Assembly (NCBI GenBank): GCA_921293015.1 | Contig: OV121092.1 | Span: forward strand, 13,584,001-13,648,000 | Source: Phorcus lineatus | Lineage: Eukaryota > Mollusca > Gastropoda > Trochida > Trochidae | DNA: 64,000 nucleotides | Direction of reading: 5' to 3' | Shown: positions 1 through 62,697 of the stretch, piece by piece | Layout of the letters: every line of letters starts with the position of its first letter | Position numbering within the stretch: the stretch's first letter is position 1 | Notes under the pieces: generated by a model | Seen by the model: the letters and a program-made list of their open reading frames with translations, nothing else | What the model was told of the DNA's origin: nothing | The model's database searches: none | Made by a program: the position numbers and the translations under genes

Positions 1-131
1 GGGATATATTCAATCTACTTTTTTACTGAAATATCACCAACCACATATAAAAAAGTAATATAAAAGTAAGATATTTAAAGAACACCAAACCCTCAGATGG
101 TGTTCTTCCCCCAAGTTACCCCCATTCTCTG

Positions 132-720
132 CAGGTATCGAATCCCACCTGAATCACCTGAAAACTTATACACAAGTAAACACCAAAGATATAAGTCTAA
201 GAGAAAAGGAATTTTATTTGAACATCATTCCCTCCAGATTAGCAAATTGCCCTTCTACCCCTGATGTCCATTGACTGTATCCAGGTGTATCTGGGGTATT
301 GTATCCTGCCTGTGTTACCTGAAGACTGACAGGTAAATACCTGAGTTATTGTGTACAGGTAGATTTACCTGCTGATAAAGGGTTGTGAGATAGGGTGTTG
401 CCATACCTGACAGGTGATGTGATGAGGTATGGTTCAGTGGGCTTACCTTTAGAACATATGGTTAGAAGACAGGTAGAAATATCTCAAGTACCTGAAGTTT
501 ACATGTGTGACATGTATAATTGTTACAAAAAAATCAACTAATCAAGTACTGTAGATCTATATTTTATGAACTAGATCCCCACAACTAGTGAAAACAGAAA
601 TTACATGAAACCAATTCAAAAATGATATTTCTTGTATAAAAATAAACCAAGCCTTCAGGTAACAATTTATCTTCATTGTTGCACCTGCCAGCAACGATGT
701 CACATCATCAAACGACAGGT
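132..720. promoter_or_regulatory. Cluster of CAGGT/ACCTG motifs
   Basis: Sixteen exact CAGGT or ACCTG pentamers occur here, starting at 132, 147, 156, 282, 317, 330, 339, 356, 367, 405, 411, 470, 490, 656, 683 and 716. About one would be expected by chance in this length. Some pairs are palindromic, such as ACCTGACAGGT at 405-415. CAGGT(A/G) is the core bound by Snail/ZEB zinc fingers and by some bHLH proteins, so an enhancer is possible. A decayed satellite is the main alternative. No gene is visible in the stretch. Confidence 0.45.
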
Positions 721-2700
721 GAGAACAATAATGTCTATTTATAGCCAGATCCAGATAATGCTTAGCCGACTTTTCTCTATCATCCAAATCAATGAATCAT
801 TAAAGCTATGTTTACATTCCTGATTGCGTTTATCTTATGGTCTAGACTGCTGTTTTGCCTCCAAATAAATATTTTGTTAAACAATTTGGCTCAAATATGT
901 TGACCCTTATTCATGTGGGTAAAGAAATCCCAGCTATTTTAGGTCCTTATTTGTATTCAAATTTGTATCATTACCATATTCAATTGCAATAAGTACCCTC
1001 TATCCATAAGTGCCCTCTAAACATATTTGTAACTCGCAAAATTTAATCAGCGACCCCTTCTCATAACTTTCCTAGCTTTATAATACTAGCCACTTTCAGT
1101 TGAGCCATAAGTCTCTTACTTCTGCCATAAGTCAGGAAGTTGCATCACCAGACCACCTCTTGAAGGTATGCATGTGACTGTCAAGAATTTAAGGTATAGA
1201 CGTCAATGAGTTTTGAAATATTTGCTTGTTTTTAAACAAAGTATATCTAGACATTTAACTCATTCCATTGAATTTTATTGAAAACCATTTCAATAAACGC
1301 CCCTCTTTTCAATTTCCTAATTAATATGTACCAAAACCTAATTAGGGTAAGCAACTTGTGAAAATCTGAAAAAATGCAATTTATTTGAAAATTAGTTTCC
1401 ATAAAAACCTCATCAATGAACAGGATGCAAACCTGATACAAATCCTAACTCAATCACTGTTTGACCACAGTTATGGGTAATGTAATTGTTGATTTCCACA
1501 TTACCTGAAAATCATACAATATCTCTGATACTGACTTTCCACATTTTACCTTCAAAGAACAGTCTTGTTAACAGGATTCAAACCTGATCCAATTCCAAAC
1601 AACTTTTCAAACCAACAGGATAATTTCATATCGTTATTCCAGCTTTATCTGAAACTTAAGCTATAGGTTTAATTTGCAACTGACTATAACGTTATTCCCA
1701 GATCTGCCATCACGTGTGTATCAAGCTCATTGATTTGTTGTGTTAGTGATGGCTGCATAAAAAGGGAGCTGTTGTTTGTTGTGGAAACTGTCACCCAACA
1801 ACAACAAGCTTTTATCAACCTCACAATGTTGTTTAATGCCTGACTTGATCTTCAATTGAGTAACATTAAAAAAAATATTATATATTCAATATTAAAGATC
1901 TTTTTAAAATTTGTTCACTTGAAGAAACGTGTACTGTTTTTTACTTGCTTGTGTTATGAAATATTTTTCTTATACATCGTAACATTTAAACTTAAACAAA
2001 ATCATTTTATTTTTTGCAAGAAGATTATGCAATTTGTTCAGAGACGGTCTATTACATACTAATTTTGATACTATTAAGGGCTCATTTTTCATATTAATAT
2101 TGCAAAAGAGTGTCATTTCTATTATAATATTAAACCCAAAAAATCTTGTAACATATTGATGAATATTCAGAATTAAGAAGAAAGCCCTGCTTTTGATAGA
2201 AAAAATATTTGGAACAGAGACTTTATTAACATCATTAAAACAGAATTTTAATGATTCCTAAAGGAAATATTTTCTAAAACCATTTGGAGTTTTTTAATTG
2301 TAAGTTCCTCAACCGCTGATTTTCCAAAACTGAAAATCAAATGGATAGCAAATTGAATATGACCCTTGAAATAGCACACAGTGTTTGCCTGCAAACAAAC
2401 CTTTGTCCTCTGTTTCCAAAATCATTGGATTGTTTTTAAAAATTTTTGTGTAAACTTCCCAACACACGTGAAAATGATGTTGAGTTTCGCAAGGTCACAC
2501 ATACTGCTGACTCGACCAATATCCTTCTGGTCAATGTTCGCTGAAAATGCCTTCGTAAACATAAAACTAAAGTGTGTATTAACCCCAAAACGAATAAAAT
2601 AATTAACAATTTATATCTTGGGCTATTTATTTTTGCTACATGTTAAGCAAACGTTAAATCATACCTGTTAATTTGTAAATTTATGAAAAATTATGTAAAC
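721..2700. other. No gene seen; AT-rich spacer or intron
   Basis: Only short open frames of 60-75 codons occur, without recognisable motifs or paired splice sites. No repeat copy that I could match elsewhere in the window was found. Confidence 0.5.
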
Positions 2701-2707
2701 TTAATTT

Positions 2708-2794
2708 GGGTTTGGGAGGGGTAGGGTTATAGTGATTCATGGTTGAAGAGTGTATATTTAGTTAGGGTTTTGGGGAGGATCGGGGTATGGGGGG
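2708..2794 (+). other. Two canonical G-quadruplex motifs
   Basis: Motif one (2708-2726) reads GGG-TTT-GGG-A-GGGG-TA-GGG. Motif two (2765-2794) has G-runs at 2765, 2772, 2782 and 2789 with loops of 4, 6 and 3 nt. Both satisfy the G3+N1-7 rule on the plus strand within 90 bp of otherwise AT-rich DNA. Confidence 0.7.
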
Positions 2795-3313
2795 AAATGC
2801 AAATGTATTGTATTTTATTTTCTTGTTTATACGTATATTTTTTACCATTTTACATGCAAATGTTTTAATGTGTCTCGTAGGCCAAATGGCCGGATGCTAT
2901 GTGATATTGTTTTAAAATGTCATAAAATCGAAAATTGGCATGTGACACACAATTAAAATGTCTTTCTTCTTCTTCTTCTGTAAATTTTTGCCCTAGTTAC
3001 TAGCGGAGCTAAACTCTTAATAATAGCCCATACCACCTTTCATATAGATTATGTGGTTCTTGAGTTCTGTTGAAACAAAGCACTGATTTTTATTCATATC
3101 TATCATTTTTTAACATGCCTTACATGATGAAAAAACTGTTAAACATTTTACTTACAAAATGTTTCCTTTCTTGCAAATTGTAATAGGTATCTAACTCAAT
3201 CGTTAGATTTTGTATCCTTTTCTGCGCAAATTGGTTTTATCATAAAAATAATCATTTTTGTATTTTTCATTAAGTTAAGTTACACTGTGACTACTTTACG
3301 AATACTATTAAGT

Positions 3314-3485
3314 TATATAAGATACCCACGGCATTAAAACAATGGCGAACAATGGGACCGACGATGTGCTTTATTTGACGATACAACCATGCGCAAGGTT
3401 AATGACGTCATTTCAGTAACGTTACAAATGACATCATATTGGCCAAGTCCATTGATCAAACTTGAGGGGGCTATTGTCCATCATG
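3314..3485 (+). promoter_or_regulatory. Promoter-like CpG-rich patch with TATA and CRE
   Basis: A TATATAAG box lies at 3314-3321. Downstream are a perfect CRE (TGACGTCA) at 3403-3410, a CRE variant TGACATCA at 3429-3436 and an inverted CCAAT box near 3438-3443. CpG dinucleotides are frequent from about 3330 to 3690, although the window is otherwise strongly CpG-poor, which suggests an unmethylated regulatory region. A 25-codon open frame starting ATGGCG spans 3342-3419 and could be a uORF. The patch could instead be an LTR or the promoter of a mobile element. No experimental start site can be inferred. Confidence 0.4.
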
Positions 3486-3731
3486 GCTGACTCGGCGTCT
3501 GTCGATTCGAAACCAAAAGAAGGAGAGGTGTGGGTTTGCAGAGAAAGAAAAGCACGGATTAGAGACGTAACGTATCCCCAAAGGACATTTTCAAATTCAT
3601 ATTGGTTGTTCAATTTGATTCTATTTATATTGGAGGGCCCCAACCCTATACATGAAAATGGACTCGTCCGAATATGTTCTACGACGGGAGGCATCATTGT
3701 TTTCAAAATGGTTTTGTTAAAAATACCATAA
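3483..3731 (+). CDS. Candidate small ORF or first exon, unidentified
   Basis: The open frame starts at an ATG in good context (ATCATGGCT) at 3483 and runs 82 codons. The N-terminal third is charged (MADSASVDSKPKEGEVW...), with Lys/Arg-rich residues 17-30. The remainder is more hydrophobic and may be intron translation. GT dinucleotides after GGAGAG (about 3527) and GAGAC (about 3565) could act as donors, which would make this a first exon. I recognise no family. It sits just downstream of the CpG-rich promoter-like patch. The antisense strand is also open across the same segment (3434-3760), so coding potential is uncertain. An LTR fragment or a chance frame are real alternatives. Confidence 0.25.
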   Translation: MADSASVDSKPKEGEVWVCRERKARIRDVTYPQRTFSNSYWLFNLILFILEGPNPIHENGLVRICSTTGGIIVFKMVLLKIP

Positions 3732-3784
3732 TTTTTCAACTGTTTATATATATAAAGCAAGTAATTGTTAAGTGTATCTCATAT

Positions 3785-3929
3785 AAGAAATAGAAAACTC
3801 GTTGTGCATCTATCGTTGAATAAAACATAGCAGGGAGCATAAAACACTCAGGGCTGCGCCTTCGTGTTTTATGCTCCCTGCTATGTTTTATTCAACGATA
3901 GATGCACAACAACTCGTCTTCTATTTCTT
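3785..3929. repeat. Foldback element with 47-bp perfect stem
   Basis: Bases 3801-3847 are the exact reverse complement of 3864-3910, with a 16-nt loop at 3848-3863. The pairing continues imperfectly out to about 3785 and 3929. A 47-bp perfect palindrome implies a recent or actively homogenised foldback (MITE-like) insertion. A transcript would form a long hairpin. Confidence 0.85.
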
Positions 3930-4411
3930 AAGTAGTCAAATCTGCTATTTGCTCATAAGGATGATTTTTAAAAACTATTTGATTTATTTTCTTAAAGCTC
4001 TTGCCCTTGAATTAAGTGAAGCTTTCAAAGCACAACTGGCTGCAGTGTTTTTCGAGTTTAAACTAAAAAAGATTGCTAAATGTTTGCTCTTTGTATATTT
4101 ACAATCACCTAGATGCTTTGAAGAGTCACGCCTCACACTATATTAACTTGTGAATTTCAAACAAATATTTATACTTTTATGCAGACACGTTTCTTGAAAC
4201 CAAAAAGCATGTATGACTGAATGTCCTTTGAGAATATTTATATAGTAAGTATGTTATTTTTGAAAGTATATGTTGACACAAATATTTTCTTTTATGCATA
4301 CATGTTTTAAAACATGTATTATTGAATGTCCTTGCAAGAAAAGCCTATTATATTTTTATGATTAAACAAGAGGATATGTCATGGTATTTTTAAAACTAAT
4401 TCTAAAAAGCT

Positions 4412-4715
4412 CAACTCAGGCGTTTTGGGTTTAAATCCCGCTTTCAAGAGAATATTACTTCCATCATTGCTGCTAGTAATATTGCAGGGAGAAAGCTTGC
4501 AATACCATTGTGGCTTTGCATTGTGGTGAAACCTGCGAGCATTGGCTAGAACTATCGAACCATTTGTGGTACTGAGCTAAAATTCAGTGTAGCATTGCAC
4601 CCAAACCTTAAATTACTGGATGCAGAACAGTTCTCAACTGCAGAAAAAAGTTGACGAGCCCCTGATGTGATTTGCGATCTAAAGCCAAATGTGCTTAACA
4701 CTGTCCTATCCTGTT
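4412..4715 (-). mobile_element. tRNA-derived SINE (family A), old copy
   Basis: This is the first of twelve family A copies. Family A is read on the minus strand: the tRNA-like head lies at the right end (A box like TAGCGCAGTGG, B box like GGTTCGAATCC), then a conserved body, then a GAGT/GGTGA-type tail at the left. This copy keeps the body but has a badly eroded B box, and I found no target-site duplication. Confidence 0.8.
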
Positions 4716-4780
4716 TTAACTCGGAAATTATCTTGAAATGTAAAGAACTAAAGTTTGAATATGATCTTGTAAGAAAAAAA

Positions 4781-4975
4781 GTTTCAGGCGGCGCTAAGGC
4801 GACCTGTCAAAGAGAAGTTTGGTAGAGATAGCAGCATTCAAAAAGCATTCACGTTGGAACCAAACCGAAGATTGGAATAACTTAGAAAGAGGATAAAACC
4901 ACTATTAAACATGGTTTCAGACGGTGCTAGGCAATCTGTTTAGAAGAGGTTTGATGGGGTTAGCAGCGAATCCAC
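4781..4975. repeat. Two-copy tandem duplication (~133 bp)
   Basis: Segments from 4781 and 4914 share the pattern GTTTCAGRCGGYGCTA, followed by similar AGAAG.TTTG and TAGCAGC blocks. The offset is about 133 bp. Confidence 0.55.
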
Positions 4976-5640
4976 TTATGGATACACCTTTGGAAATAAA
5001 GCTTTGATGAAGATGGCAAACACCTTGGAAACATTTATCATTACAATTCTGGTCTGGTTGCATTAAAGTACATGTGTTTTGCATGACAATTGCATGAACC
5101 TAAGTAAAGTCAGAATAGTGATAAAACAGGTTTTGAACACAGAAGCCTTTCTGAAATAAAAATTTGTTAGATATGCAAGAAAAAAAAAATGAATAATTTG
5201 ATAAACAAACAACATTTTAACATCTTTAATGAATTCAATTAATGTAATATTTTTGGCACATTCTTATGATTTGATTGTCTATATCTAGAAACTTTTATAT
5301 TGTACACAGATGACTTCATTCATATAGACTAACATGTATTCAATGCAAGAATTGTTTCCTTGAAATATGTATTTATTATTTCGTTTTGAACTGATATTCA
5401 GATATAAAGATATATCACTAATTAGCCTCGTTTAAACACCTATAAAACATACTTATTGTGTTTAATATATAACAGTGGTAAATAAAGCTGTTTAAAACTT
5501 CTAATCACTCTTGAGTGGCAGACGTGTACTAATGCTTGAAATATAGTATTTAGTTTGTACGTAAGATTAACTTCTCAGAAATAATTCAGACTTCAGTTTA
5601 GTTGATGCTAAACACATTACTACCAATATAAAACATAATA
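4976..5640. other. No gene seen; AT-rich intron flank
   Basis: There is no recognisable coding segment or repeat. If the minus-strand COBL-like gene is real, this lies in the intron downstream of its first coding exon. Confidence 0.5.
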
Positions 5641-6095
5641 AAGACTTACTTTGAGTCTACCAGTAAAAACAGGTATAATGACTTCTTTAGGTCTACCAGG
5701 TAAAAAACAATAAAGACTGACTAAAGGTCTATCAATTTGAAACAATATAGACTCACTTGAAGTCTACCAGTATAAAACATTACAGACTTATTTTAAGTCT
5801 ACCAGTATAAAACAATACACACTTATTTTAAGTCTCCCAGTATAAAACAATACACATGTGCACTTACTTTAAGTCTCCCAGTATAAAACAATACACATTT
5901 ATTTTAAGTCTCCCAGTATAAACAATACACACTTATTTCAAGTCTCCCAGTATAAAACAATACACACTTATTTTAAGTCTCCCGGTATTAAACAATATAC
6001 ACACTTATTTTAAGTCTCCCGGTATTAAACAATACACACTTATTTCAAGTCTCCCGGTATTAAACAATATGGACTTACTTTGAGTCTACCGGTAT
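5641..6095 (-). repeat. 35-bp minisatellite containing a splice donor
   Basis: Thirteen degenerate copies with a period near 35 bp can be followed by the GTCT core at 5655, 5691, 5727, 5762, 5797, 5832, 5873, 5908, 5942, 5977, 6014, 6049 and 6084. The last copy is the 3' end and donor site of the COBL-like exon. The most distal copy (5643-5661) matches the 19 bases at that exon border exactly, including GTAAGT. The copy near 5866 also keeps an intact GTAAGT. The other copies mostly carry AATAAGT-type variants that lack the donor GT. Confidence 0.85.
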
Positions 6096-6300
6096 AATGG
6101 TGGTCTTCCCGCCTGGCAGGGTAACAGAGAGTTCTATCTGTTCGTCAATGACCTCGTTCATGTTCACATCATCCACCGGCGCCGAGCTGTATTTGAGGGG
6201 AGGGGGGCCGCTCCCATTCTTGTGTGACGAGGATTTCATGTCTGTCCCCGCGGGGACCGAGGGGGAGAATCCCCTCTTAGTCGAACTACTCATTCCTTTC
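6079..6300 (-). CDS. COBL: Cordon-bleu/COBLL1-like, N-terminal coding exon
   Basis: COBL-family proteins are actin regulators. They have a proline-rich N-terminal stretch, a ubiquitin-like Cobl domain and C-terminal WH2 actin-binding motifs. Here an ATG at 6293 opens 71 codons plus two bases. The Ser/Pro-rich start contains GSGPPPLKYS (about residues 27-36) and leads into DEQIELSVTLPGGKTTI (about residues 50-66). That closely matches vertebrate COBLL1, where DKDIELSVVLPG begins the Cobl domain and is followed by V.GSK. The exon is bounded by a good acceptor (TTTTTATTTCAG, AG at 6302-6301) and a GTAAGT donor (6078-6073), leaving phase 2. Seven bases precede the ATG, so at least one 5' exon lies at higher coordinates. 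The following exons are not in the lower 6 kb as far as I can see. The donor sits inside a minisatellite. The assignment rests on one exon. Confidence 0.7.
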
Positions 6301-6859
6301 CTGAAATAAAAATGTTTATATTAATTTTTAATGTTAAAGAATTTACCAATGTTTCTTGAGGAGTCAGACATCCCAAAATAGGGGGAATAGGACACAGGAA
6401 TAACAGCAGAGGGATCCAGAGGATGCAGAGATAGGACCAACAGAAGGTGCCAATAATTAATTGAATTATTAGAAATAAACATTAAAGTTACATCATAACT
6501 GCTGGGATCAAGTTGTATACCACGATCATCTGAGATGAATATTCATTCTTTTTCTGAAATTAAAGGAAGAAAGAGAAGAGGAGATACAGGAGGAAAGCCT
6601 GCAACTCCAATATGATAATTCTTTGGAAAGAAACCTGCAAGTTTCTCCTGTCTGAATGCTGCTCCAAAGAGGTTTGACATATTAATTAACAGTGCTCTTT
6701 TGCAAAAACATGCCTTTATGGATCAAATTCTGGATATATGTTAAAAATAATAAAGATAGTTTTTTTGTCCTGTAAATGTCCTGAACAGAGTGAGATTCAT
6801 TTAGTTCAAGTGCACCCTCTCTCCATAGTGCAGCACCAGTTACTAAATAGAGATTATTA

Positions 6860-7362: not shown

Positions 7363-8640
7363 AAACCATTTATTTAGACATATGAAATGAATTAAAATTA
7401 GAATAAAAGAAAATATGAATCAAGGAAACGAAAAATCATATTGTAATAAACATCACATTACTTACTAAAATATCAAAATTGACATTCATACATTCATATG
7501 AATCCAACAGGACTATCTGACAAAAACATTTATGCTGTGGTCAGATCACACTTAAATGACCTTACCTTAAGAATTTCAAATATTTTCTCAAGTCCTTGGT
7601 CTTCTAGTACAATTCATAAATTATCTTGACGAGTACATGCAAGCAGATATATATATATGATATTTACTTAATGGTGGTAAAACAATAGAATAAGACAAAG
7701 CATTTCATTAATTTCTTTAAACACTTTTCACAGAAATGTATTTGTGAAAAACTTTGAACCTAAGATTCTGTTAAAAGAAGAGTTTTTCCCTCCCACTAAG
7801 AACTAAAATGTGTTTTCTATTGTTTTTTTACAAATTTTCTTGGATAAATCCAGCATATCCAACAATTAAAGAAATTGTTATAATTAAAAATCATCCAAAT
7901 TTTATACATATTTATGCAGAAAAATTTCTTTAAAGGGAAAAATGTATATATTCACTCAAACAGATTATGCTCAGTCATAGGATAACAATAACAACTCAAG
8001 TGACAATCACAAGAGGCCATTTTAGTGTGAACACCTTTGAAACACTAGAGAAATGAATTTACCTAGCCTTACCAAACTTGGTACGTTCATTAAAGAAATA
8101 CTTATTCTGACTGAATTGGATTTTTTTGAAATTTGTAAAATTTGTGTCCTTTTTTGTAAGATCCCTTAATTTACATATAAAAATGTGCAATGGAGCTTTT
8201 ATTACTTTAATCATCGGCATTCACCCTGGACCCTCCAGAAACAGTAGTTAAAAGGTGAGGTCATTTATGGTTTAATGCCATTGTCAAGAGTATTTCACTT
8301 TATTGCGCTTAAAAAATTGGTAAAAGGGGGCGCTAATTAAAACGATAAAAATTGTCCTCAAGTTTAGTCTTGAAAGTGTTTTCTTACGATACACATGTCT
8401 TTGAAATATGGTTTGTAACTATTATCATTTTAATGGTGGCTGGGGGTCTTGAAATACTCTGTATTCTTCACTTTAGTGGGAGTAAAAGACTTATTGCAAG
8501 ACTGAAAAACCTTCTTCAATGAATCAGCATGCAAGGTAAGCAATGTTGAGAGGTGGGTGCTAAATCAGGGCGCATATTGTTCAGTCAAAAACGTGGTGGG
8601 TGGGCGCTTATAGGGGAGTGGGCGGTTATTAAGTCGAATC
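7363..8640. other. No gene seen
   Basis: AT-rich sequence with no open frame of interest and no repeat identified apart from a short AT run near 7650. Confidence 0.5.
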
Positions 8641-8866
8641 GGTATTGCAGGAAGAAAACCCACAACACCATTATGGCTTTGCATTGCGGTTAAACCTAGC
8701 AAACCATGGGTAGTACTGCACTGAAATTCAGTTAAGCATTACCAAACCTTACTGTGTGTAGAACAGTTCTCTACTGCAGACAAAGTTTTCAAGCCCCTAG
8801 CAGGATTCGAACCCCAGGACTCTTGATCTGAAGCCAAACTTGCTAACCACTGCGCTATCTCGCCCC
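8641..8866 (-). mobile_element. SINE family A, tail-truncated
   Basis: Head and body are kept, with B box GGTTCGAATCC and the A box region at the right end. The left (3') third, with the tail, is missing. No target-site duplication was found. Confidence 0.8.
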
Positions 8867-29545: not shown

Positions 29546-29854
29546 CCTTGACAAGAGTGAGTGAGTGAGTTGGGGTTTAACGCCGCTTTCAATTTCACTT
29601 ATATCGCGGCTGCTAGTATTATTGCAGCGAGAAAGCCCGCAACACCTCTGTGGCTATGCATTGCGGTGAAACCTGCGAGCATCGGCTGGAACTAGCGAAC
29701 CATGGGTGGTACTCAGTGCAGCATTGCACCCAAACCTGACTGCGTGTAGAACTGTTCTCTACTGCAGACAAAGTTGCCGAGATTCGAACCACTGACCTCT
29801 TGATCCAAAGCCGAACACGCTAACCACTGCGCTATCCGCCCCTCCTTGACAAGA
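29546..29854 (-). mobile_element. SINE family A, young, with 11-bp TSD
   Basis: CCTTGACAAGA at 29546-29556 is repeated exactly at 29844-29854 around an almost full-length copy with a GAGTGAGTGAGT tail. About 15 bp around GGCGGGATTCG is shortened, which damages the stretch next to the B box. The exact target duplication points to a relatively recent insertion. Confidence 0.92.
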
Positions 29855-43110: not shown

Positions 43111-43421
43111 GGTGAGGTGAGTTGGTGTTTAACGCCGCTTTCAAGATTATTTCACTTATATCGCGGCTGCTAGTATTATTGCAGGGAGAAAGCCCGCAAC
43201 ACCATTGTGGCTATGCATTGCGGTGAAACCTGCGAGCATCGGCTGGAACTAGCGAACCATGGGTGGTACTTCGCTGAATTTCAGTGTAGCATTGCACCCA
43301 AACCTGACTGCGTGTAGAACAGTTCTCTACTGCAGACAAAGTTGCCGAGCCCCTGGCGGGATTCGAAACCCGGACCTTCTGATCCGAAGCCGAACGCGCT
43401 AACCACTGCGCTATCCCGCCC
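43111..43421 (-). mobile_element. SINE family A, near-consensus full-length copy
   Basis: Tail GGTGAGGTGAGTTGG, full body and head are present: A box TAGCGCAGTGG, and a B box with one extra base (GGTTTCGAATCC). The flanks are A-rich and similar (AAATATTAAAG and AAAAAATTAAAG), suggesting a target duplication in a poly-A-like site. The 71-codon minus-strand frame here is SINE sequence, not a gene. Confidence 0.92.
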
Positions 43422-45461
43422 CCCAAAAAAAAAATTAAAAAAATTAAAGATAATTGCTTATGAAATACAAAATTTCAATCATAAAAACAGAATTGTGATT
43501 GAAAGAAAAAGACAACAGTGCATGTGTACATCACCGTTTTCATCCCAACAGTACAAATGGTAACTTGTTTAAGATGACAGCCTGTATCCAAATATAAAAC
43601 AACCTTTTCAAGTCTTGACACCTCTTCAACTGGATATACTTATTATATGATAAGCTTATAAGATCATCATAACATAACCTTGAGTAAGAAGAACAAAGAA
43701 GACTGTTCTTTACAGAGCGCATGAGCATACATATTCATAAACTTGTGAATATGATGATCCAGCATTTTACAAATAGATTTCTGTTACTATGTAAAAGGTG
43801 TATGTAAAGAAGTATGATACAATGCAGTTAAACATAACCTGTGTCATGAAATATATATCATAAGTGCACATATGCAGTTTTACCAATGTCTTGTAGAGTC
43901 TGTAATAATGAAACAATTGACATGATTAAGTTGAGCAAGCATATGCAACTTCAAGAAAATTAAGAAACGTAATTTGTGTCTTATAACATATGTGCACATG
44001 TGCAGAAATGATGTTTTTTCGTGGCATGTGTTACATATCATAAAACAATACATGCCACTAAGGCAGGCAGTAAAAGTTGATGTGGACCATATGCCGACAT
44101 TTTGTATATGATTCAAATGGTTAAATGAGTGTTACTTCATAAATAAAGTTCAGACAAATGTTTCAGTTGAAATAAATCATACCAAAGAATTGTCCTACCC
44201 TTTGTACATTCACTCTTTCATCACCCACACAGGTAATATTAATATCCGGTTCATATCAAGGTAGGTATAAAAGCAGGTATGTCAAATCTGAGATATTTGC
44301 ATTAGGAAATGAAAGTTACTCACCTGTAGATATAAGTACATAGGTAAGTAATTAAAGGTAGGCATATAACCTTTCAGTACTGTTTGTTTTAAGAAAGATA
44401 AGTTATTATTCTAGGGTTACATACATTTTAAATTCTTGTTATAGGAAACTTAAAATTGCCATTCAACAAAATGAAAATATTGCTTTGCATTTACTGTGTT
44501 GGCATGCCACCGTATTGAAAAAAAGAGAAAGTTGTAAACATATGAGTGGTTCACTGGAGAATGAATGAACGAGATTAAAAGCAAGAATCAAAATTAATTG
44601 GGAATTTTAGTCTTGAATTAAAATTGTGGTTTGGGGCTCTGAAAGGGAGAGAGTACATATCATGTTGTAAATGGTACATACTTTTGAAGTGAAGTTCAAG
44701 AAGTTCTCCAATTACTGAATGATACAAGAGGTGAGATATGTATTCTAAATTGAAGTACATACAATTGAAGGTAATATCACAGGTATATGTCCTGTCAGTG
44801 TTATGTTTTCAAAAGGAAATTAAAAATCATTGACAGGCGAGTGCAAAAATAGAAAGGAAATGAAAAACTTTAAAGCGTCTCAGTCATATCAATTTCACCA
44901 GATTTAACATGAAAATTATTTTCATTAGAAATGAATGTATTAACAATCAACTCTTAAATTCCCTTTTTTATATCTTATATTTTCATTTTGCCTTGCTTTA
45001 AATTTGTATTGTTCACTAGATTTGGGCTTAACATTAGCCAAACATTACATTCTATTGATTATTGCATCCATGTACAATACATAAACCCTAATATCTGCCA
45101 CTCCTGTATTATTATGAGACAGCAAAGTGAATGCAAATCCCGTAAACTCAGTGAAACTGATTTGCAATAACACTTCAAGACCAATTCATTTTAATGTACA
45201 TTTAGTTTATTTACATAAGATGTATAAGATCTCTTTTATTTGCCAAGGTGTAAGATTGAAAACGACAGCATCATTTAATACTCTTCTTGATAACTCCAGT
45301 CCCATTTCTTGTTCTTGAATCCTCCAAATAACATTTCCGTTTAATCATTGGATGATTCAAGATTCTTACCCTAGATTTCAAGTAAAATTCCTGTAATTTG
45401 GGCTCTCAGAATGGCTGCAACTTCTCAGACAAGCAGTTAAAGAATTCATATACCACCAAGG
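43422..45461. other. No gene seen
   Basis: A weak duplication (GTGTC.TATAACATAT...GTGCACAT near 43850 and 43975) and a small cluster of CAGGTA motifs at 44230-44360 occur. No coding segment is supported. Confidence 0.4.
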
Positions 45462-47596: not shown

Positions 47597-47933
47597 GTGA
47601 TATGACTAAAGAGTGAGTGAGTGAGTTGGGGTTTAACGCCGCTTTCAAGATTATTTCACTTACATACTGCTAGTATTGTTGCAGGGAGAGCCCGCAACAC
47701 CATTGTGGCTATGTATTGCATTGAAACCTGCGAGCATCGGCTGGAACTAGGGAATCATGGGTGGTACTGCGCTGAAACTCCGTGTAGCATTGCACCCAAA
47801 CCTGACTGTGTGTAGAACAGTTCTCTACTGCAGACAAAGTTGCGGAGCCCCTGGCGGGATTCGAACCACGGACCTCTTGATCCGAAGCCGAACGCGTTAA
47901 CCACTGCGCTATCCTGCCCCCGTGATATGACTA
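47597..47933 (-). mobile_element. SINE family A, young, with 12-bp TSD
   Basis: GTGATATGACTA is repeated exactly at 47597-47608 and 47922-47933. Between them is a nearly full-length copy with GAGTGAGTGAGT tail, B box GGTTCGAATCC and A box TAGCGCAGTGG. A short deletion near TCGCGGCTGC is the main lesion. Confidence 0.94.
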
Positions 47934-60771: not shown

Positions 60772-60925
<154 letters not shown>

Positions 60926-62372: not shown

Positions 62373-62697
62373 ACAATGTTAATTAATGTGAGGTGAGGTG
62401 ATATGGGGTTTATCGGCGCTTTCAAGTTTTTCACTTATATCGCGGCTGCTAGTATTATTGCAGGGAGAAAGCCCGCAACACCAATGTGACTATGCATTGC
62501 ATCAGCTGGAACTAGCCAACCATTGGTGGTACTGCGCTGAAAGTATTTGTATCATTGCACCTTAACCTCACTGCGTGTAGAGCAGTTCTCTACTGCAGAC
62601 AAAGTTGCCGAGCTCCTGGCAGGATTCGAACCATGGACCTCTTGATCCATAGCCGAAAGCAGTAACCACTGCGATATCCCGCCCCTACAATCTTAAT
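62373..62697 (-). mobile_element. SINE family A with 11-bp imperfect TSD
   Basis: ACAATGTTAAT (62373-62383) and ACAATCTTAAT (62687-62697) flank a copy with tail GGTGAGGTGATATGG and B box GGTTCGAATCC. About 20 bp around GGTGAAACCTGCGAGC is deleted, and the A box has one change. Confidence 0.9.

Follow-up and report, generated by a model that had tools for sequence, protein, structure and literature searches.

The 64,000-nt stretch of Phorcus lineatus DNA analyzed here (hereafter 'the window') contains, on its minus strand, a minisatellite with a unit of 35 bp that runs from the end of a COBL-like exon, across the exon's own 5' splice site, and into the following intron. We believe that this array is a minisatellite of the 'mirage' type, that it is most likely a neutral by-product of repeat growth, and that the real donor at position 6078 is the one used (a reading to which we assign a probability of roughly 0.8).

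TRF, run on the window, placed the array at 5620-6097 (minus strand), with a period of 35, 13.3 copies and a score of 438, and a listing of the repeats gave 13 copies in register. The array reaches 19 nt back into the exon at 6079-6300 and, across the donor, 459 nt into the intron, such that both the exon end and the intron start are repeated in its units. A preliminary description of the region had reported thirteen copies of about 35 bp, extending from the exon's own donor into the intron over 5641-6100; the array and its copy number stand, and its start is moved to 5620. The same description had matched the farthest copy (copy 13, 5643-5661) to the exon/intron border at 19 of 19 bases, GTAAGT included. 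An exact-word search agrees: on the minus strand, the 19-base border word is found at 6072-6090 and 5643-5661 and nowhere else in the window (which has a G+C content of 33%). With up to three mismatches allowed, five matches were found in the window (including the two exact ones), compared to 0.01 expected from 100 shuffles. A blast search with the array returned no second match within the window and, against the 958-Mb assembly, a single match corresponding to the array itself, in a search that skips very common words and for which a single match is therefore not proof of rarity. The predicted RNA fold of the array region was not unusual (z of +1.3, with 90 of 100 shuffles folding at least as well).

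Other repeated features are present elsewhere in the window. A dispersed element of ~270-310 bp, probably representing a SINE family, is located at 43151-43460 and includes a tRNA-like part at 43354-43420 (Rfam), with no tRNA gene listed in the element by ARAGORN; it gave 12 blast matches in the window, counting itself and fragments (for example at 47655-47921, 29594-29842 and 62430-62685). A near-perfect, MITE-like hairpin at 3784-3930 (arms of 61 nt that are 90% complementary, with a 6-nt loop) gave no further blast match within the window, and a pure (AG) run of 149 bases occupies 60775-60923.

The exon at 6079-6300 (222 nt, minus strand) lies in an open frame at 6075-6320, is entered and left in phase 2, and is bordered by the acceptor tttttatttcag|G (AG at 6302-6301) and the donor AAA|GTAAGT (6073-6078). 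Two of the six possible frames are open across it. An open frame is by itself little proof of an exon, since shuffled sequences are often open too (at least one open frame in 1415 of 5000 shuffles and at least two in 178 of 5000). Taken alone, the exon had no match in Pfam, and BLASTP against human COBL yielded nothing meaningful (the best alignment, E 0.59, fell in an unrelated region); a shuffle test on the final portion of the exon gave 0.058, a search of solved structures gave one match (E 1.1), and the exon peptide had a single match in the 958-Mb assembly, which was the exon itself. The human sequence used in these comparisons, which we take to be COBL, matches Pfam Cobl at 1e-46. A Pfam search of the three minus-strand frames across 1-6078, with stops represented by X, gave one weak match without bearing on the gene.

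We accept 6079-6300 as an exon because the sequence downstream of it supplies both an in-phase next exon and a match to COBL. The next exon, which was located with tblastn and was missed by a regular-expression search, follows an acceptor (ttgcctttcag) at L003:8123-8122, and its first base completes the codon that is split at the 6078 donor. The peptide encoded by the two joined exons (...LSVTLPGGKTTIIPVDS-N-IPMQDLRVLL...) aligned with this human COBL sequence over 93 columns with 28 identities (E 1e-11, as a single comparison). In the 40 kb beyond the window, a match to the Pfam Cobl domain (PF09469) came to light on the same strand at L004:8875-9246 (28.2 bits versus a cut-off of 25; E 2.6e-6). 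Judged from these sequence matches, the gene is a member of the COBL (cordon-bleu) family, and the COBL-like exon and 6078 donor that had been proposed for the minus strand are borne out. The intron that bears the array corresponds to C19:13582122-13590078 and is 7,957 nt in length. A Cobl family search of the organism's own genome gave nothing at E≤0.001; it also matched none of 14 control genomes and so was uninformative. Further downstream, a minus-strand open frame of 623 amino acids (L005:6392-8263) probably belongs to the COBL-family gene. Its end stretch presumably resembles the WH2 region of COBL-type proteins; WH2 was not found by Pfam in this frame.

The donor GT is kept in four of the 12 intron copies (with first intron bases at 5867, 5756, 5721 and 5649) and is missing in the remaining eight, in line with the initial observation that most intermediate copies lack it. 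Copy 7 (5862-5867) and copy 13 (5644-5649) each carry an intact AAA|GTAAGT on the minus strand, while copy 10 (5751-5756) carries CAA|GTGAGT and copy 11 (5716-5721) a weak GTCAGT. The preliminary description had placed GTAAGT at 6078, 5866 and 5648; the three words are indeed intact, with their first intron bases corrected to 6078, 5867 and 5649, and the sites at 5756 and 5721 had been missed. We calculated U1 duplex energies of −6.7, −5.7 and −5.6 kcal/mol for copies 7, 10 and 13, respectively, and of −5.6 kcal/mol for the real donor; a splice-site matrix scores the decoy at 5756 above 6078.

Past the exon, the reading frame continues as ...GAC TCA AAG TAA. The TAA (6077-6075) lies inside the real GTAAGT, and an extended exon therefore stops at once; such an in-frame stop is inherent to any phase-2 intron that begins with GTRAGT. 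When 5867, 5756, 5721 or 5649 was joined computationally to the next exon, all four products ended ...PVDSK-stop, and among the donors examined 6078 alone leaves an open frame. We infer from its agreement in phase with the next exon that 6078 is the donor in use. The earlier suggestion that the decoys could add intron-encoded residues does not hold, as they add none beyond one codon running into a stop.

These same features might be taken to indicate a poison-exon device, in which the decoys would compete for U1 and divert transcripts to an immediate stop, COBL-like output would fall, and the length of the array would set the diverted share. The parity of three decoys with the real donor in U1 pairing is consistent with such a device, as is the immediate stop in each of the four extended exons examined. 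Within ~450 nt, three sites in the array also equal or exceed the real donor in strength, versus ~0.5 expected. Sites of that strength are common, however: the 64 kb hold 74 on the minus strand and 77 on the plus strand (~1.2 per kb on either strand). The three in the array exceed the local expectation, yet are nothing unusual for an 8-kb intron. The first view of the decoys as a threat to splicing was in that respect overstated. The primary paper on the minisatellite of IFI6 that gives multiple splice donors is reportedly that of Turri, from 1995. In human IFI6 (6-16), which like the present array has tandem repeats with donors at an exon end, two downstream repeat units are described as serving as splice donors (PMC4526556), which favors a regulatory role; here, a downstream donor would instead lead to an immediate stop. 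Against such a role, the extended exons would reach 433-651 nt, GT is absent from two-thirds of the intron copies (8/12), and normal splicing is reported for comparable arrays in lancelets (PMC3087553, PMC3902484). A poison-exon function therefore seems to us quite improbable, and we regard the reading of the array as a regulatory device as unsupported.

Comparison of the copies provides an indication of how the neutral array may have arisen. Inner copies 2, 4, 5, 6 and 8 share 89-97% mutual identity, with copies 3, 7 and 9 falling below that range (for copies 3 and 7, due to insertions). Identity to the exon copy is 80% for copy 9, 83% for copy 10, 78% for copy 13, 61% for copy 11 and 59% for copy 12; the interior of the array is thus homogenised and its edges divergent, strongly so for copies 11 and 12 and less so for copy 13, which looks like a retainer of the ancestral state in its core. 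Seven of the eight GT losses are the identical G>A change at +1, and the eighth is a 1-nt deletion. On a FastTree phylogeny of the 13 copies (insertions in copies 3 and 7 dropped; branch supports of 0.64-0.90 on a short alignment), the G/A state at +1 requires just two steps, and we therefore conclude that the dead donors are mostly one event, multiplied. Relative to the exon copy, +1 is changed in 7 of the 12 intron copies, a frequency similar to those at −13 (9 copies), −10 (7), −4 (11) and +7 (7). Loss of GT is one among several changes common to a young subfamily, with selection not visible in the sequences. We see no need to invoke selection on the copies, which at 35 bases are too short to exclude it. 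Two points speak against this history: the age pattern shown by the identities of copies 9-13 to the exon copy is not clean, and copy 7 keeps an intact GTAAGT amid the derived units.

The simplest history that we can propose begins with a stretch of ~35 bp across the exon/intron border, which would have been tandemly duplicated by replication slippage or unequal exchange, after which the copies on the intron side would have multiplied. The middle of the array would then have been filled by a derived unit type in which G>A at +1 was present by chance, and most decoys would for that reason be dead by descent. The far copies 11-13 would lie outside the derived group, and the exon copy would be held by the combined constraints of coding and splicing. 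The spliceosome would take the exon-proximal donor at 6078, such that the exon stays at 222 nt; a transcript spliced from a distal donor would meet the stop in the old donor, and its degradation or a short protein would be expected.

A second donor-spanning array is present in the same gene. It has a period of 52 and 22.2 copies (TRF), is located on the minus strand at C19:13571872-13573022 (L004:7872-9022), and covers the terminal 23 nt of the exon that encodes the Cobl domain, together with the donor of that exon (TGG|GTAAGT, L004:8999). Requiring at least 18 of 24 border bases to match, we counted 21 copies. A degenerate unit lying after the second copy and before the third is not among them, and two of 23 listed entries were set aside, one at 7985 as a chance match and one at 7858 as a shifted copy at the array end. 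GT is kept in 18 of those 21 copies and GTRAG in 10, among them eight consecutive intron copies with GTAAGC. The reading frame runs 41 residues into this array before a stop at L004:8874, ahead of the first intact decoy at 8847; use of a decoy there would therefore add ~41 residues, followed by a stop.

Because GT survives in so many copies of the second array, decoy loss is not a rule. This bears on whether selection stripped the donor GTs from the intron copies of the 35-bp array in order to protect splicing. The absence of GT from eight of its 12 intron copies would fit such selection, but seven of those eight losses are a single shared change that takes two steps on the tree, and the second array keeps GT in 17 of 20 matched intron copies. 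We consequently give selection against the decoys very little credence.

The present array closely resembles the lancelet mirages, described as tandem duplications of intron/exon borders in Adh3 and in the globin genes BflGb6 and BflGb9 (PMC3087553), with troponin C (TnC) and PGBD5 also named as mirage genes (PMC3902484). Those arrays, which can affect 5' or 3' borders (PMC3087553, PMC3902484), likewise consist of border-spanning units, some with splice signals, that are homogenised inside and not at the edges. In the globins and Adh3, regular splicing is said to continue, with a variable number of copies and homogenisation of the inner ones (PMC3087553), and mirages are reported not to disturb normal splicing (PMC3902484). 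The lancelet cases differ in involving other genes and in that length variation and normal splicing are reported for them, whereas the present case consists of the sequence of one assembly. As far as that sequence indicates, the structural features of a mirage-type minisatellite that we tested (border-spanning units, a real exon, a homogenised interior) are all present here. A literature search, with most subscription journals outside its coverage, did not bring to notice such arrays outside of lancelets and IFI6.

In the Rogers model of intron gain, tandem duplication copies splice signals (PMC3087553), as has happened here. The array might accordingly be viewed as a step toward a new intron, in which an AG located just upstream of the donor word lets a unit become a small exon, as proposed for the lancelet globins (PMC3087553). 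The AG at −9/−8 is in fact unchanged in all 12 intron copies. The spacing between AG and GT is only 7 nt, however, several stops interrupt all three frames through the array, and what is seen is the lengthening of an existing intron rather than a new one. We rate this possibility as extremely improbable.

Under the neutral reading, the occurrence of two donor-spanning arrays in one gene still calls for comment, as it could hint at more than simple accident. In the 104 kb surrounding the gene, arrays (period of at least 10, at least three copies) occupy 4.8% of the sequence, a figure that includes both donor-spanning arrays; at that coverage, the chance of at least two covered junctions among 8-18, a guessed number, is 0.06-0.21. 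Arrays in 30 kinase loci, which served for array coverage only, amount to 2,228 of 111,858 bases (2.0%), at which the same chance, calculated by hand for the same guessed junctions, falls to about 0.01-0.05. A region rich in minisatellites may have acquired two such arrays by chance, although a tendency is also possible. In that case the donors of this COBL-family gene would be prone to tandem duplication, with something at transcribed 5' splice sites promoting minisatellite birth, such as a stalled polymerase or bound U1 favoring re-replication. This idea gains weight from the kinase-locus coverage, which makes two chance arrays less likely. Genome-wide, three spaced GGTAAGT words gave 515 forward and 534 reverse matches, versus 676 and 527, respectively, when the word was reversed (counts of matches rather than of arrays), and among the matches listed for C1 up to 57.76 Mb we distinguished by eye at least 11 separate GGTAAGT arrays versus at least nine for the control. 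GGTAAGT-carrying minisatellites are thus not commoner in the genome than reversed-word ones, and in two other GGTAAGT arrays on C1, read by eye, we saw no clear exon on the upstream side. We regard a proneness of these donors to duplication as unlikely.

One COBL-family gene therefore displays the mirage pattern twice, with opposite fates for the copied donors, which have largely been lost from one array and largely retained in the other. The paired arrays offer a natural experiment on the handling of numerous decoys close to real donors by the splicing machinery.
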